Shown here: positions 968 through 6,639 of the stretch, one piece after another
How positions within the stretch are numbered: the first letter of the stretch is position 1
Layout of the letters: every line of letters starts with the position of its first letter
DNA from: Candidatus Rifleibacteriota bacterium
GTDB lineage: Bacteria > Riflebacteria > Ozemobacteria > Ozemobacterales > Ozemobacteraceae
Direction: 5' to 3'
Assembly: GCA_029560455.1 (NCBI GenBank)
Contig: JAKQKW010000155.1
Location: 1 to 6,639 of the forward strand
DNA length: 6,639 nucleotides
The notes under the pieces: model-generated
Database searches by the model: none
Seen by the model: the letters and a program-made list of their open reading frames with translations, nothing else
What the model was told of the DNA's origin: nothing
Translations under genes and position numbers: made by a program

Positions 968-1258
968 TCATGTTGCCAGTGCTTTTAATACCGCTTCTGG
1001 TTGCATTTGCACGACTCGAAGAAGAGCCTGGGCCGGACCTACGGGTTTGCGACGGCCCTGTTCCCAGTTTTGCAGAGTTGAAAGACTGACGCCGATCATT
1101 TTTGCAAATTCAGACTGAGATTTATGCAGGCTTTCGCGGAGTGCTTTCACATCGAGAGCTGTGAACTCGAACACTCTGGAAGGCTTAATTTCGCCGCGTT
1201 TGATTTGAACAAACTGCTTTACACCCTCAACCAACCTGTTAAAGTCTTTGTCTTTCAT
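968..1258 (-). CDS. NadS/HigA2-like Xre-family antitoxin
   Basis: This 96-residue protein is the antitoxin of a type II toxin-antitoxin pair. It would bind and neutralise the toxin encoded just upstream and repress the shared promoter. Residues about 47-72 form a clear Cro/C1 helix-turn-helix (SQSEFAKMIGVSLSTLQNWE, then QGRRKP). It is followed by the GPAQALLRVVQMQPEAVLKAL tail typical of NadS-type regulators, here at residues 74-94. The N-terminal 30 residues, containing KRGEIKPSR, resemble the toxin-binding segment of HigA2-type antitoxins; this part is inference. The ATG at 1258-1256 overlaps the toxin stop codon as ATGA, and an AAGGAG site seven bases upstream lies inside the end of the toxin gene. 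The order toxin-then-antitoxin is that of higBA systems. The family is confident; the exact sub-name (HigA, NadS, YiaG-like) is not. Confidence 0.88.
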   Translation of the reverse strand: MKDKDFNRLVEGVKQFVQIKRGEIKPSRVFEFTALDVKALRESLHKSQSEFAKMIGVSLSTLQNWEQGRRKPVGPAQALLRVVQMQPEAVLKALAT

Positions 1259-1572
1259 TTTAACACTCCTTTTACCAGAGACTTCAGCAGCTTTATCTGA
1301 TCCTGAGTGAGGTCTTCCTGAACAGATTTTTTATAAATGACGACCAGATAAAGCTTTTGCGTCGATTTTTCCCAGTAATAAATCACTCGAACTCCGCCAC
1401 GCTTACCTTTGCTGCCCTGCTTCCAACGCATTTTTCTGAAACCGCCACTGCCCTGAATCAGATCGCCGACCTCTGGTTCGAGCAGCAAAGCCTTCTGCAT
1501 TTCCTTGTATTCATTATCAGAAAGCAGGTTCAGCAAATCTTCAGTAAAGACCGGAGTTTCTATAAATATCAT
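1255..1572 (-). CDS. HigB2-like RelE/ParE-superfamily toxin
   Basis: This is a 105-residue toxin when started at the ATG at 1572-1570. HigB2/RelE toxins are ribosome-dependent mRNA endonucleases that stop translation when free of antitoxin. Family marks are the MIFIETPVF start, LLSDNEYKEMQKALL (residues 16-30), GDLIQGSGGFRKMRW (36-50), KGKRGGVRVIYYW (55-67) and VVIYKKSVQEDLT (77-89), which resemble V. cholerae HigB2 block by block. The basic and aromatic residues in the last two blocks are the probable RNA-cleavage surface. The frame is also open back to a TTG at 1590-1588, six codons earlier, but relatives begin at MIF or MKSVF, so the ATG is preferred. No Shine-Dalgarno sequence precedes it; a TATAAT box sits six bases upstream, so the message is probably leaderless. 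The gene looks intact. It overlaps the antitoxin by four bases, implying translational coupling. Confidence 0.88.
   Translation of the reverse strand: MIFIETPVFTEDLLNLLSDNEYKEMQKALLLEPEVGDLIQGSGGFRKMRWKQGSKGKRGGVRVIYYWEKSTQKLYLVVIYKKSVQEDLTQDQIKLLKSLVKGVLK
1266..1271 (-). promoter_or_regulatory. Strong ribosome site of the antitoxin, inside the toxin gene
   Basis: The minus strand reads AAGGAG, a near-complete Shine-Dalgarno, seven bases before the antitoxin ATG and within the last codons of the toxin. The toxin start has no such site, so the arrangement should favour more antitoxin than toxin from one mRNA. Confidence 0.75.
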
Positions 1573-1578
1573 ACTTAT

Positions 1579-1607
1579 ATTATACGTCAATGACTGATAT
1601 AACGCAA
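1579..1607 (-). promoter_or_regulatory. Promoter of the toxin-antitoxin operon
   Basis: On the minus strand a perfect TATAAT (1584-1579) lies 17 bases from a weak TTGCGT -35 (1607-1602). The expected transcription start, about seven bases after the -10, falls on the A of the toxin ATG at 1572. That predicts a leaderless transcript. The operator-like palindrome at 1581-1599 overlaps the spacer and the -10. Confidence 0.6.
1581..1599. promoter_or_regulatory. Operator-like palindrome in the toxin-antitoxin promoter
   Basis: The 19-base imperfect palindrome reads TAT-ac-GTCA-A-TGAC-tg-ATA: seven of nine base pairs are symmetric about the A at 1590, including a perfect GTCAATGAC core. It covers the spacer and most of the -10 of the promoter, where Xre-type antitoxins usually bind to repress their own operon. 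A wider TTATAT/ATATAA pair flanks the same region. That the antitoxin binds here is inference. Confidence 0.5.
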
Positions 1608-1804
1608 CTGAAATGCCACCCGGCAGTGCTGGTTTTCCCCGGCTGGGATGTCAGTCAGCAGATAGCCGCATAAGTTGTTCGGTGAAGCGCATCTGGCTTT
1701 AGTCGATGCGGTGAATAGTCGTTCTATTTGCATTAAATTGTGCGGTGAATAGAAAAGTATCTGATTGACGGTGCGGTGAATAATCATTATATTCTCATTA
1801 AATT
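1591..1804. other. Divergent intergenic region between toxin-antitoxin and fic
   Basis: This 214-base region separates two divergent promoters. The left part (about 1600-1675) is GC-richer and holds nothing I can name: no convincing ORF, RNA gene or strong hairpin. The right part (about 1679-1804) is AT-rich and is taken up by the GCGGTGAATAG repeat array and the fic promoter. The shift in composition between the halves suggests separate origins for the toxin-antitoxin and fic modules. Confidence 0.6.
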
Positions 1805-1817
1805 ATGCGGAGAATAG
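1708..1817 (+). repeat. Four direct copies of GCGGTGAATAG, iteron-like operator array
   Basis: Copies start at 1708 (GCGGTGAATAG), 1742 (GCGGTGAATAG), 1773 (GCGGTGAATAA) and 1807 (GCGGAGAATAG), spaced 34, 31 and 34 bases apart, close to three DNA turns, so they would lie on roughly the same face of the helix. A fifth weak copy (TCGGTGAAGCG, 8 of 11 bases) may begin at 1679. The third copy lies within the spacer of the fic promoter and the fourth overlaps the G of the fic ATG and codons 2-5. Same-strand spacing and promoter overlap suggest binding sites for a regulator, perhaps the winged helix at the Fic C-terminus. Confidence 0.7.
1765..1793 (+). promoter_or_regulatory. Promoter of fic, giving a nearly leaderless mRNA
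   Basis: TTGACG (1765-1770, five of six consensus bases) is followed after exactly 17 bases by TATATT (1788-1793, five of six). The expected start of transcription is about 1800-1801, only four or five bases before the ATG at 1805. No Shine-Dalgarno sequence can fit in that space and none is seen further upstream either. Repeat unit 3 (1773-1783) occupies the spacer, so a protein bound there would block RNA polymerase. Confidence 0.7.
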
Positions 1818-2917
1818 AAAAATATATTTATCAAAAGCCAGACTGGCCGAGGTTTTTCTGGAATACGGAAAAACTGCTGACTTTGCTGACTGAAGTAAGA
1901 AACATGCAGGGCCGCATTGTCGGGCAAATGAGCGCTCTGGGGTTTTCCCTCAAAGATCATGCGAACCTTGAAATCCTGACTCAGGACATCTTGAACTCCA
2001 CTGAAATTGAAGGGGAAGTTCTTGATAAAAATCAGGTCAGATCTTCAATTGCCAGGCGACTTGGCCTGAATGTTTCCGGTCTTGTTGCATCCGACAGAAA
2101 CGTGGATGCCGTTGTTGAAATGATGATCGATGCCACCAGAAATTTCGATCAGCCTCTCACCAGAGACAGAATCATTGGCTGGCACAATACCCTTTTTCCT
2201 TCAGGCTACAGCGGCATGCTTAAAATCCGGGTCGGCAAATTCAGAGATGACGCGTCAGACCCGATGCAGGTTATCTCTGGCCCAATCGGCAAAGAAAAAG
2301 TTCATTATCAGGCCCCGCCGGCAGCAGCCCTGGAAAGCGAGATGGCGGCTTTTCTCGATTGGTTCAATAAAGAACAGGGCATCGATCTGGTAATAAAATC
2401 CGCTCTGGCGCATCTATGGTTCGTCACCCTCCATCCCTTCGACGATGGCAATGGAAGAATCGCCCGGGCTCTGGCAGATATGATTCTGGCCCGTTCAGAC
2501 GGCCAGCCGCATCGCTTTTACAGCATGTCTGCGCAAATCAGGGCCGAAAGAAAACAATATTACGAGGTTCTGGAAAAAACCCAGAAAAGCTCACTCGATG
2601 TCACCTGCTGGCTGGAATGGTTTTTAAAGTGCCTGCTGAATGCCATAAAAGCATCTGCAACGACTCTTGACATGGTTGTTTTCAAGCACAATTTCTGGCT
2701 GACCAATGCTGCAAAACTCGAGAACGAAAGACAGCGCAAAATGCTCAACAAGCTGCTGGATGGCTTTGACGGCAACCTGACTTCTTCAAAATGGGCTAAA
2801 ATCTGCAAATGCTCTCAAGACACCGCCCTGCGCGACATCAGAGATCTGCTGGAAAAAAAGATACTGCAGAAACTCCCCGGCGGCAGCCGCAGCACCGCCT
2901 ATGCTCTGAAAAAATGA
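1805..2917 (+). CDS. Fic family protein (class II, DUF4172 N-terminus, C-terminal winged helix)
   Basis: This 370-residue Fic protein probably transfers AMP from ATP to hydroxyl side chains of target proteins. Residues 7-20 (YIYQKPDWPRFFWN) open a DUF4172-type N-terminal region. An inhibitory helix motif STEIEG (residues 65-70), matching [S/T]xxxE[G/N], precedes the Fic core, making it class II; Glu69 would block productive ATP binding until released. The Fic signature HPFDDGNGRIAR (210-221) is complete, with catalytic His210, so the enzyme should be active. The flap region lies near residues 166-176. Residues about 300-370 look like a winged helix (LTSSKWAKICKCSQDTALRD, 325-344). The ATG sits four or five bases from the predicted transcript start with no ribosome site. 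It is flanked by the repeat array upstream, and its stop is one base from the jetD stop on the other strand. The target is unknown; stress control, a solitary toxin or gene regulation are all possible. Confidence 0.93.
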   Translation: MRRIEKYIYQKPDWPRFFWNTEKLLTLLTEVRNMQGRIVGQMSALGFSLKDHANLEILTQDILNSTEIEGEVLDKNQVRSSIARRLGLNVSGLVASDRNVDAVVEMMIDATRNFDQPLTRDRIIGWHNTLFPSGYSGMLKIRVGKFRDDASDPMQVISGPIGKEKVHYQAPPAAALESEMAAFLDWFNKEQGIDLVIKSALAHLWFVTLHPFDDGNGRIARALADMILARSDGQPHRFYSMSAQIRAERKQYYEVLEKTQKSSLDVTCWLEWFLKCLLNAIKASATTLDMVVFKHNFWLTNAAKLENERQRKMLNKLLDGFDGNLTSSKWAKICKCSQDTALRDIRDLLEKKILQKLPGGSRSTAYALKK

Positions 2918-2918
2918 A

Positions 2919-4208
2919 TTAAACCCCTATGTTTTCCTGCTCGAGCCAGAGGTTTTGCGATGCGATTTCGTTCAGCAGGTCGGCGCAGATGATATCGGGG
3001 CGGCGCTGCAGCAGTGAGACGATCAGCTGTTTTTCAGCGGCCGGCAGAGCCCTGCCCCTGGCTGCGTGATCTCTGAAAGTTTTTACATCCATGCGCATGG
3101 GCCTGATTTCCAGGCCGGTTCGGCGGCGCAGGCTGTCGAGAATGAGAACGCCGCTGCGGTCGAGATCGCCCCAGTGCCAGATTTCGGCCGCCATTCTCTG
3201 CAGTTGTGACAGAAAACTTACCAGCAGCCGGTTAGCCTGACCCATGGTGCACAATATCAGCTCTCTGGCCGGGTCGGCCCGCTCAGCGTATTCGAAAAAT
3301 GTCGTCTCGTTCTCTATGCACAGAACCTTTGCCGGAACCGCAACAACCGAAGAATTATAAAGCTGCGCCCAGGTAAGCACGACCGGCTCGCCCAGAGCCG
3401 CGTGCCGCCTGACATAGTCAAAGCACTCGCCGCCCTTTTCAAACACGAGATTGCCAAAAACCAGTATTCGACTGGCAGAACCGTCGAGCTGCAACCTGGT
3501 CTGTTCGAGAGCCATACGCAGCTTTTCGCTCTCATTCGCAGGTTCAGACAAATCAACTTCCGCTTTTACAGAGGCATCAAAGCGATAGATGATACGGGCA
3601 AAACTGTTGAGTAGCTGGGTTCCGGGGCGGCAGCACTTGGTATCGCCGGCCACTTCGAGCCCGAAGCGGGAAAGGCGCACCGGCCGGCTGTCAGACGCCA
3701 GAAAGCTTAAGCCGCGAGACAAAGCGGTCAGATAGTTTTTCACAACCGGAAAGCCTTCAGTTCTGGCCAGAGAGAACAATTCGCCGCGGCCGGCGGCGGC
3801 GTTCTGGCTTTCAGCCGCAAGCCAGTCGCGAAAAACCGTGCAGGCAACCCCGGCAAATTCATCGATAACCGCACTGAGGCGCGAAGCCAGATCGGTCCTT
3901 TCGCCACGCAGATTGCGGCGAATTCGCCTGGTAACAGCATAAAGGGTGTCAACAATACCAGGCTGCTGCTGAAGCAGTTCTTTCAGCTTCAGCGTAACTT
4001 TTGTCGGGCCGACAGCCACAAACTTCGGGCCAAAAAACCACCTGATATCTTCGGGCTTGTTAAATGCGGCGGCTGGCAGCGAAAAGACATTCGGAACATT
4101 GCCGAGTCTGTCGATTTTATCGAGCAGAGCCGCGACAAAAGCACCCGCATCGGGGGTTCTTTTCAGGTCATCGGCCAACTGTTCATTATGCTGCTGATTT
4201 TCAGTCAT
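2919..4208 (-). CDS. jetD: Wadjet anti-plasmid system protein JetD (Toprim-containing nuclease subunit)
   Basis: This 429-residue protein matches JetD (DUF2220), the nuclease subunit of Wadjet, which cleaves circular plasmid DNA once the JetABC SMC complex has extruded it. The C-terminal half carries a Toprim-like fold: VLCIENETTF (residues 295-304, Glu299 the likely first metal ligand) and AEIWHWGDLDRSGVLIL (341-357, with the D348-x-D350 pair). An LEQE segment (422-425) close to the C-terminus matches a conserved end of JetD as I remember the family. The N-terminal half (residues about 15-200) is helical and divergent; I cannot assign DUF3322 with confidence, so the Wadjet subtype is open. 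The ATG at 4208-4206 follows the jetC stop by 33 bases; a purine-rich GAGGGGAGA lies 12 bases upstream, rather far for a ribosome site, but no in-frame alternative start is near. The gene is the last of its operon and converges on fic with one base between. Confidence 0.85.
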   Translation of the reverse strand: MTENQQHNEQLADDLKRTPDAGAFVAALLDKIDRLGNVPNVFSLPAAAFNKPEDIRWFFGPKFVAVGPTKVTLKLKELLQQQPGIVDTLYAVTRRIRRNLRGERTDLASRLSAVIDEFAGVACTVFRDWLAAESQNAAAGRGELFSLARTEGFPVVKNYLTALSRGLSFLASDSRPVRLSRFGLEVAGDTKCCRPGTQLLNSFARIIYRFDASVKAEVDLSEPANESEKLRMALEQTRLQLDGSASRILVFGNLVFEKGGECFDYVRRHAALGEPVVLTWAQLYNSSVVAVPAKVLCIENETTFFEYAERADPARELILCTMGQANRLLVSFLSQLQRMAAEIWHWGDLDRSGVLILDSLRRRTGLEIRPMRMDVKTFRDHAARGRALPAAEKQLIVSLLQRRPDIICADLLNEIASQNLWLEQENIGV

Positions 4209-4241
4209 GCAATCAAGACTTCTCCCCTCGCCTGACCGGCT

Positions 4242-6639
4242 TCAATTAATTATGATCTCGGCGGCGGCTTCGGGTTCTGGCTCAGAGAAAAGGTCGACCT
4301 GCTGCTGATCGCGACGCGAATATCTGTATTCGCCGAGATAGATATCGCCCGCCGGCGTTTTTTCGACCAGCAGAGTCGTTGCTTTCGCCAGTTTGCGGGT
4401 GACACCGTCGAGGTCGGGGTGAGCAATCACCAGGTTCAGACCGATGCTGTCGGCAAAGCTCAGCAGTTCGTCGCGGCGCTGTGCGTCGATACCGTAAAAG
4501 GCTTCGTCAATCAGCAGAATTCTGATTTTTGCCGCAGTATGATCGAGGTGCACCTTGGCGAGAGACAGTAGAAGCAGATAATTCGGCACTGACTGTTCGC
4601 CGCCCGACCCAAGGCTCAAAGTCTGCTGTGACAGTTCGACGCCTTCGCTGCCCGGCTCGGTCTGACCGGAAGTTTTGGCTTTCAGAACCACGTCATACCA
4701 TTTGCGGTAATCGAGGAAATCAGGCAGTTCTGAGCCTTCGCGAATCATCGCCTGCTTGTTGTCTTCGAAAAATTCCCGCATTTTGCGGCGCGAATCTTCA
4801 TTGGCAATCGAAGCGCCGTGCACCAGGCTCCTGAATTCTCTGAACTCGCGGCGCAGCTGCATGCTGAAATGATAGACGGTGTTGCCGAATTTCAGCTCGC
4901 TGAGATGACGGTTCATCTGTTTGATGGTTTTTTCAAGCGCAGCTTCTTCCTGCCAGAGACGGCGAACTATGTTGTTGATGATCAGGTTTTCGAAGAGGTC
5001 GCGGTTTTTGCCGCTGAGAATTTCACGGTTTTTTTCGTGTTCCCGTTCGTGCTCAGCTGCCAGCTCTTTCAGGTCTTTGCCACTCGACTGAACTGCGAGA
5101 GTATCATCGTCGAGACTGAAATGAAAATCTTTCTGCAACAGCGGATTCCGGTCGATGCAGTTTTTCAGGTCGGTATGGTGGCGGGTGAAGCTGAGCTCGG
5201 CCTGACGCAGATTTTCTTCGCAATTCTCAGGCTTTATCTGCCGGCCGCCTCTGGTGATGTAAACATAATCGCGCAGCTGCGCTTCGTCGAGACCTGGCCT
5301 TAAAAGCTGCATTTCAGCAACTCTTAAGGCAAACTCCGCTGTTCTCGCTTCGAGCTGCTGCCTGGTCTGCTCGATACGAACGCCGATGTCGCGCTGCTGC
5401 TGATCAAGTCTGCCCTGACAGCGCAGAATTTCGCGATGCCGCTTTTCGAGGTCTTCGCGGCAGGTTTCAAGTTCTCTCAATCTTGCGGCCAGTGCCTCAA
5501 AGCTCTTTTCGCCAGCCGTTTCAAGGCAGACCGCAATCTGCCTTTCACAACCGGCAATTTCCGCTTCCAGGCCGGCAAGAGACGCCTGATTGCGGTTTTC
5601 TTCATCAACAGCCCGCTTCTCATCTGCGGCAGCCTCGAGGTATTCTTCATTCATTTTTACAAGACTGCGCGGGCGTAAACGGTTAAGGTCGTCATATTGC
5701 AGCTCGAACGCTTTCAACCTTTCGTCGGCGGCTGAAAGTTCTTTTTTAAGCCTTTCCAGCTCCATATTTTCGCTATTGGCTGCGTAACGCAGGCGGTCGA
5801 TCTCTTCCTGGCGGGTTCTGGCGCGGGCCGCGCTGCCAATATAACGATTCTGGTCGCAATTTACACGGCGCAGTGCCGAATTCTGAAGTATCAGACCATC
5901 ACTGCTGACAGCAAAACCCTTTGCCTGCTTCAACAGCTTTTCATCAGAGCTGAACAGCCGGTAGTCATCGAGAAGTTCGGCAGCAAAACGCTCGGCCGCT
6001 TCCGGCATGGCGTTGAACTGCAACTGGCTGCGCAGGCCGCCAACGGGCGGTGCAGACAGGGCAGACACGCCGGCATCGGTATCAATCACCGGGATATTGA
6101 ACGGTCTGGCGATGACCGCAGCCCGGGCACGATTACGCTGGCTGCCGGTGGCAAAAATGGCACAGAGGTTCTCGGGGCCGATCAGTTCTTCAATAACTCT
6201 TGCCAGACCATCTGAAAGACCGGGAGCCGGTTCGAGCAACCGATAAAATGGCACAAATTCGATTTTTTCTTCGTGCAGTCGCTTCTGCAGCTCTTCGAAC
6301 TCTGCGGCCGGTGGCACCGGGTCAGGCTGCTTTTCGAGCCTGGCGATTCTTTTTTCGAGATCGGCGGCTGAACGCTCGACCCGGCTTATTTCCTGGCGCA
6401 GAGCGGCCTTATCGTCGCTGAAGCGCCGCTTGCAGTCACGCGCCCTTTCGAGCCATGCCTGGTAGCTTTCGTCAATACCGGCGGCAAATTCATCGCGTGC
6501 AAATTTCAGACCGAAGTTTCCGAGCGTGTCGAGACGCTCACAACATGCCTGCAGCTGCTGCCACCAGTTTTCGATACTGTCGCTGATCGCGTCTTTGCGC
6601 TGCCTGAGGCGCTGCAGTTCGCGTTTCAGGGCCTCGATT
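4242..6639 (-). CDS. jetC: Wadjet SMC-like ATPase JetC, partial (N-terminal part beyond the right edge)
   Basis: The frame stays open to the window edge, giving 798 visible residues of an SMC/MukB-like protein. The GTG at 6317 is not the start, because coiled-coil sequence continues upstream. Order seen: end of the first coiled coil (visible residues 1-105), a globular hinge (about 108-275, closing with GLILQNSALRR and NRYIGSAARAR), a long returning coiled coil (about 275-610), then the ATPase head. The head has the ABC signature LSLGSGGEQ (4593-4619), Walker B IRILLIDE (4503-4526) with D-loop AFYGID, and a switch histidine in VIAHPD (4419-4421). Walker A would be in the missing N-terminus. 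In Wadjet, JetC is the DNA-extruding motor working with kleisin JetA and KITE-like JetB and delivering plasmids to JetD. The direct jetC-jetD order supports this over MukB or RecN. The tail ends with a charged, probably disordered stretch containing QVDLF (4287-4301). Confidence 0.88.
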   Translation of the reverse strand, partial: IEALKRELQRLRQRKDAISDSIENWWQQLQACCERLDTLGNFGLKFARDEFAAGIDESYQAWLERARDCKRRFSDDKAALRQEISRVERSAADLEKRIARLEKQPDPVPPAAEFEELQKRLHEEKIEFVPFYRLLEPAPGLSDGLARVIEELIGPENLCAIFATGSQRNRARAAVIARPFNIPVIDTDAGVSALSAPPVGGLRSQLQFNAMPEAAERFAAELLDDYRLFSSDEKLLKQAKGFAVSSDGLILQNSALRRVNCDQNRYIGSAARARTRQEEIDRLRYAANSENMELERLKKELSAADERLKAFELQYDDLNRLRPRSLVKMNEEYLEAAADEKRAVDEENRNQASLAGLEAEIAGCERQIAVCLETAGEKSFEALAARLRELETCREDLEKRHREILRCQGRLDQQQRDIGVRIEQTRQQLEARTAEFALRVAEMQLLRPGLDEAQLRDYVYITRGGRQIKPENCEENLRQAELSFTRHHTDLKNCIDRNPLLQKDFHFSLDDDTLAVQSSGKDLKELAAEHEREHEKNREILSGKNRDLFENLIINNIVRRLWQEEAALEKTIKQMNRHLSELKFGNTVYHFSMQLRREFREFRSLVHGASIANEDSRRKMREFFEDNKQAMIREGSELPDFLDYRKWYDVVLKAKTSGQTEPGSEGVELSQQTLSLGSGGEQSVPNYLLLLSLAKVHLDHTAAKIRILLIDEAFYGIDAQRRDELLSFADSIGLNLVIAHPDLDGVTRKLAKATTLLVEKTPAGDIYLGEYRYSRRDQQQVDLFSEPEPEAAAEIIIN
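4287..4301 (-). other. QVDLF motif in the JetC tail, sliding-clamp-binding-like
   Basis: About 15 residues from the JetC C-terminus, after the last recognisable head strand (GDIYLGEYRYS), the sequence QQQVDLFSEPEPE appears. QVDLF differs from the canonical bacterial beta-clamp-binding peptide QL[S/D]LF only by V for L. Its position in a Gln/Glu/Pro-rich, likely flexible tail is where such peptides are usually found. Clamp binding itself is inference. Confidence 0.4.

Follow-up and report, generated by a model that had tools for sequence, protein, structure and literature searches.

The stretch of DNA analysed here (hereafter the window) comprises 6,639 nucleotides of contig JAKQKW010000155.1 (assembly GCA_029560455.1), from a Candidatus Rifleibacteriota bacterium of the Ozemobacteraceae, and harbors a fic gene whose promoter region carries an array of short repeats running into the start codon (Table 1). 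The repeat, referred to below as a half-site, is TGCGGNGAATA, and four exact copies of it lie on the forward strand (A1, C1, A2, and C2). An original prediction, made from the letters of the window, had described the array through the unit GCGGTGAATAG, which has exact copies at 1708 and 1742 and copies with a single mismatch at 1773 and 1807; the copies, their positions, and their spacings (34, 31, and 34 bases) were correct, but the unit had been taken one base too short at its 5' side. The same prediction rightly placed one copy in the spacer between a -35-like and a -10-like hexamer and let another (1807) begin with the final G of the start codon (ATG at 1805); the possible fifth copy proposed at 1679 carries three mismatches and falls at chance level, since the window contains 21 matches with up to three mismatches against 16.2 expected. 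When the window was shuffled 60 times with its dinucleotides kept, four 11-mers with at most one mismatch within 120 base pairs (bp) never arose, the maximum being two copies in 59 of the shuffles and three in the remaining one; the repeats are thus confirmed as real and beyond chance.

Furthermore, two degenerate inverted half-sites (B1 and B2), overlooked in the first reading, occupy the positions where relatives have better inverted copies. The six half-sites are therefore arranged as two A(+)-B(-)-C(+) modules across the promoter and the start codon, and the array includes a 57-bp repeat that is 84% identical. The promoter-like pair TTGACG-17-TATATT is the sole match of its kind between positions 1580 and 1860, where 0.6 would be expected by chance.

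The product of the fic gene is a DUF4172-Fic protein: the Pfam scan places PF13776 at its N-terminus (E-value 5.6e-32), followed by PF02661 (E-value 3e-18), and, as in the CbFic2-like members of this group, a winged helix stands at the C-terminus. The two motifs of class II Fic proteins, HxFxDGNGRxxR and an N-terminal [ST]xxxE[GN], are both found (Table 1), and residues H210, D214, G215, N216, G217, R218, R221, E69, and G70 are invariant over 33 aligned rows. On these motifs, read in the light of established knowledge on Fic proteins and of the available part of PMC10628234, the enzyme is predicted to be a class II Fic adenosine monophosphate (AMP)-transferase.

Table 1. Features of the window discussed in the text (positions counted from its first letter).
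Feature	Position	Strand	Description	Basis
Half-site A1	1707..1717	+	TGCGGTGAATA	exact to TGCGGNGAATA
Half-site B1	1725..1735	-	inverted, degenerate, TAATGCAAATA; 18 bp past A1	4 mismatches
Half-site C1	1741..1751	+	TGCGGTGAATA	exact to TGCGGNGAATA
-35-like hexamer	1765..1770	+	TTGACG	promoter pattern match
Half-site A2	1772..1782	+	within promoter spacer	exact to TGCGGNGAATA
-10-like hexamer	1788..1793	+	TATATT	promoter pattern match
Half-site B2	1790..1800	-	inverted, TAATGAGAATA; overlapping -10	3 mismatches
Half-site C2	1806..1816	+	TGCGGAGAATA; overlapping start codon	exact to TGCGGNGAATA
fic gene	1805..2917	+	370 amino acids; DUF4172 (PF13776), Fic (PF02661), C-terminal winged helix	domain scan
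Inhibitory motif	1997..2014	+	S65-TEIE-G70	alignment
Fic catalytic motif	2432..2467	+	HPFDDGNGRIAR, residues 210-221	alignment
Winged-helix domain	2726..2908	+	about residues 308-368	
Recognition helix	2816..2854	+	residues 338-350; Asp339 (codon 2819-2821) matched by C at half-site base 3	
HigA-like (XRE) gene	968-1258	-		protein family scan
HigB-like (RelE-like) gene	1255-1590	-		protein family scan

Scanning a single genome for each species yielded 249 stretches encoding relatives, the best 80 of which (57-85% identical) were kept and form, together with the window, a first set of 81 loci; a second set of 77 was drawn by family searches in the phyla of the fetched loci, where PF13776 was present in 10/39, 31/247, 1/249, 21/198, 10/149, and 1/2 genomes per searched phylum. 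The proposal that the motif should also stand upstream of other DUF4172-Fic genes was borne out: at least one half-site with at most one mismatch lies within 200 bp upstream of the Tyr7 codon in all the 80 relatives and in the window (81/81), and such matches number 228 in the 16,037 bp upstream of Tyr7 versus 26 in the remaining 471,169 bp of the same loci. Relative to the Tyr7 codon, the sites fall into six slots, namely A1 at -103, B1 at -85 (inverted), C1 at -69, A2 at -51, B2 at -33 (inverted), and C2 at -17. Allowing two mismatches and 4 bp of slack, these are filled in 55/80, 20/80, 54/81, 73/81, 55/81, and 67/81 loci, respectively, and on the opposite strand in 0, 4, 1, 2, 2, and 0; with up to three mismatches, the inverted site is present at B1 in 49/80 loci (within 4 bp) and at B2 in 71/81, with eight on the opposite strand in either case. 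The downstream module of the window stands at the canonical place and the upstream one 13 bp farther out. In 51 of the 81 loci the ATG is located at -18 or -9, i.e., on the canonical C2 slot. The two Riflebacteria loci, which are the closest relatives, share 93% identity over the 58 bp before Tyr7 and merely 18-35% in ungapped blocks farther upstream, which suggests that one module stays with the gene.

The same geometry emerged from a letter-blind scan of 158 loci (including seven re-fetched duplicates), in which any 11-mer was scored for an inverted copy at 18 bp and a direct copy at 34 bp, up to a maximum of 33. This 18/16-bp module reaches a score of at least 23 in 125/158 loci (74/81 in the first set and 51/77 in the second) versus 0.29% of 15,800 shuffles, and it ranks best among 169 spacing pairs, the next three reading as its register shifts. 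The layout recurs in DUF4172-Fic relatives of several bacterial phyla. Among distant relatives, the geometry is kept with the letters TGAAGCGATTA and TGATATGATTA, which are not Shine-Dalgarno sequences. The promoters are more heterogeneous: a shared Bacteroidota-type promoter (TTTG, TAnnTTTG) was recognized in 5/81 loci under strict and in 15 more under relaxed conditions, and sigma-70-like pairs in 6/81; because of these low counts, we claim no single promoter type. The sole relative in the viral contig collection (L171, with a 53% identical Fic) has an 18/16 module directly before its ATG, at 1957-2009, with altered letters (TGCGTAGAAAA at 1957, TTATCTACGCA at 1975, and TGCGGAGATAA at 1991).

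The link between the array and fic was also evident at the genome scale. We searched 20 fic-bearing genomes from the fetched loci for a direct half-site pair at 34 bp with at most three mismatches, and 34 of the 38 matches lie at a fic gene (32 at the known locus and two at a second fic copy in one genome); the other four all have three mismatches and no Fic gene within about 2 kb. A reversed control pattern matched three times in the same genomes. The second fic (L202, G058 contig C5) is full-length and 60% identical to that of the window, and its array copy is identical to the array at the first fic of the same genome.

If the Fic protein itself reads the half-sites, their letters should follow its recognition helix. 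This was checked in 121 of the 158 loci (score of at least 21, protein of at least 330 amino acids, duplicates removed), taking as the half-site bases of each locus the majority of its three best sites. The helix includes SQDTALRD in the window and SRATAFRE in L116. Base 3 is C in every locus with Asp339 (102/102) and A in every locus with another residue there (Ala, Ile, Thr, or Met; 19/19), two of these 19 being out of register. The association persists after correction for the divergence of the Fic core, and the covariation appears strong; it was established computationally, like the array, its conserved geometry, and its gene link. That the letters keep tracking the helix once core divergence is removed points to Fic as the binder, through its own C-terminal winged helix, as originally proposed.

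Several observations weigh against this interpretation. Four independent pairs of loci differ in helix class and go in the predicted direction in 3.8 of 4 cases on average, but the sign test on four pairs cannot reach significance (p 0.125), and the partial values computed over all 11 bases are weaker (0.45 for the helix and 0.17 for the core). The 121 loci had been selected for having the module, and shared ancestry was only partly removed; on the tree, the operator CGG trait changes 11 times and the helix trait five times, which implies that some operator changes occurred without a change of helix class, and 6/95 loci with an xD helix have a majority triplet other than CGG at bases 3-5. Loci L129 and L153 are read in a shifted or reversed register, and L153 alone was re-registered, for the tree and pair analyses only. 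In the second set, 26/77 loci score below 23, of which 21 score below 21; some of the latter (e.g., L135, L141, L145, and L156) retain TGCGG-like sites at other spacings, and four others (L131, L155, L158, and L168) have an unsure anchor because the match begins within the gene. In the window itself, B1 and B2 are degenerate and A2 follows C1 at 31 bp rather than at the canonical 18, and its own genome was not among the 20 scanned. Lastly, the closest relative with a solved structure, Coxiella burnetii CbFic2 (PDB 8cil), showed nanomolar affinity for DNA of random sequence (PMC10628234, available part).

Overall, the conserved array, its linkage to fic, and the covariation between helix and letters make it very probable that Fic binds to its own promoter and represses it, and we assign a probability of roughly 0.85 to the array being a self-operator of the Fic enzyme. 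According to this model, the C-terminal winged helix would read TGCGGNGAATA half-sites in the order A(+), B(-) 18 bp on, and C(+) 16 bp beyond, with one module over the promoter spacer, the -10 hexamer, and the start codon and a second one upstream; as Fic accumulates, the sites would be filled, RNA polymerase would be blocked, and further synthesis of Fic limited, that is, a single-gene negative feedback loop for which no conserved partner gene was found in the loci examined. We infer that physical binding would be cooperative and would involve pairing of dimers, for which the inverted A-B (18 bp) and B-C (16 bp) distances are candidate spacings; C1-B2 measures 36 bp in the canonical two-module form, matching the distance in CccR (see below), and 49 in the window.

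The original prediction knew of no standard name for an enzyme and autoregulator in one chain, a statement to be amended, since autorepression by a protein combining Fic with a helix-turn-helix (HTH) domain is already known. According to the available part of PMC9755527, the C-terminal part of CccR from Yersinia pseudotuberculosis, a secreted effector, binds to a pair of inverted half-sites near -35/-10, separated by 26 bp, and represses its own promoter, and repression is lost in a dimer-interface mutant. The window resembles that case in joining a Fic enzyme and a C-terminal DNA-binding domain to inverted half-sites over the gene's own core promoter (A2/B2/C2, B2 being degenerate); it differs in that the CccR footprint consists of two half-sites, AGATAATCAT-N26-ATGATAATCT, a form that the window array does not have, whereas here six half-sites with other letters form two 18/16-bp modules and extend into the start codon. 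It is on this precedent, together with the overlap of the array with promoter and start codon, that the putative repressor role rests. As for other relatives, the CbFic2 assays used random DNA, and the authors left a specific promoter site open, at least in the available part of PMC10628234, where DNA binding by SoFic (SO_4266, PDB 3eqx/3zcn; 15-16% identical in fold alignments) is given as not shown as of 2023. Fic proteins that carry a DNA-binding tail have a wide distribution, according to PMC9755527 (in part). In the literature searched, which covered few subscription journals, CccR was the only Fic protein found with a published DNA site, and the six-half-site layout, its multi-phylum spread, and the residue-base rule were not found; the half-site strings, used as text queries, gave no Fic-related title among the matches listed.

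Other readers of the repeats have to be considered. Type II toxin-antitoxin systems repress themselves at palindromic operators, and HigA-type antitoxins usually bind DNA; a HigA-like and a HigB-like gene adjoin the fic region, so that the adjoining HigA-like XRE protein, or a separate host transcription factor, might read the array. Unlike type II toxin-antitoxin operons, in which a partner gene is conserved, the 81 loci have no family of neighbouring open reading frames (ORFs) of at least 80 amino acids that occurs in more than three of them (the upstream or the downstream neighbour being missing at eight loci each), yet the motif is present in all 81, a distribution that speaks against both a partner regulator and the HigA-like gene; enzyme and putative repressor would instead share one chain. 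Since, in addition, the array accompanies fic across phyla and in 34/38 paired-site matches, and its letters track the helix of Fic itself, we regard an outside reader as very unlikely. ORFs of at least 30 amino acids within 420 bp (full flank available for 74 loci upstream and 72 downstream) do recur, in 34, 19, 14, 12, and fewer loci, and might be seen as leader peptides; where readable, they are located upstream and result from translating the array on either strand, which is what DNA repeats would produce, and they were taken as probable by-products of those repeats. It is likewise highly improbable that the repeats are core promoter, ribosome-binding, or RNA elements: in many relatives, the GGAG of C2 closely precedes the start codon, and B2 coincides in part with the -10 hexamer, but A1 and C1 lie far upstream, the inverted copies are conserved, the letters of the distant relatives are not of the Shine-Dalgarno type, and the Rfam scan of the whole window gave no match at the gathering threshold.

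Direct repeats about three helical turns apart and the 84% identical 57-bp repeat could also recall replication iterons or a tandem duplication of recent, local origin; this is scarcely credible, given that none of the six window proteins scanned against Pfam matches a replication initiator family and that the two-module layout sits at fixed slots in relatives of several phyla. Finally, Fic might bind the array and activate, or simply park there, without repressing. An upstream module could serve activation, and CbFic2 shifts towards deAMPylation upon DNA binding (PMC10628234, in part); the position of A2, B2, and C2 on the spacer, the -10 hexamer, and the start codon is that of a block, and CccR represses (PMC9755527, in part), which makes this alternative unlikely compared with self-repression.

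A self-repressing Fic might have a further property. DNA binding is reported to drive the dimerization of CbFic2 and its change from AMPylation to deAMPylation (PMC10628234, available part), and joining this dimer switch to the array leads to the rather doubtful, though conceivable, idea that the array doubles as a DNA antitoxin, keeping the bound Fic dimer in a harmless deAMPylating state. Off the array, or in a cell or genome devoid of it, Fic would then be an AMPylating toxin, and gene plus array would represent a self-contained selfish or defensive module; for CccR, a speculation along these lines has been put forward by the authors of the CbFic2 study (PMC10628234, in part). In any case, the array represents a concrete candidate site for the whole DUF4172-Fic subfamily, comes with a testable residue-to-base rule (Asp339 with C3; Ala, Ile, Thr, or Met with A3), offers the exact DNA on which a possible switch of Fic between AMPylation and deAMPylation through specific binding could be examined, and suggests that a potentially toxic enzyme could be controlled by one gene and its promoter.

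As a control, albeit an imperfect one, we considered 25 Fic_N-type Fic loci (L172-L196) from the phylum of a Bacteroidota genome, with the start of each gene set at the first in-frame ATG; the upstream DNA of L174 and L175 is identical, and the set excludes L197, which fell short of the family cut-off. None of the 25 reaches the 18/16-module score of 23. In twelve of them, the gene is preceded by another inverted repeat (11-12 of 12), as against 3/125 single-letter shuffles, so that self-operators may be a general feature of proteins of the Fic-HTH type.

Regarding the other genes of the window, the HigA-like XRE and HigB/RelE-like genes (968-1590) probably form a toxin-antitoxin pair, transcribed away from fic. 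On the other side, tail to tail with fic, genes for JetD (PF09983) and an SbcC-like ATPase occupy positions 2919-6638 of the reverse strand and are probably part of a Wadjet-type defence system.
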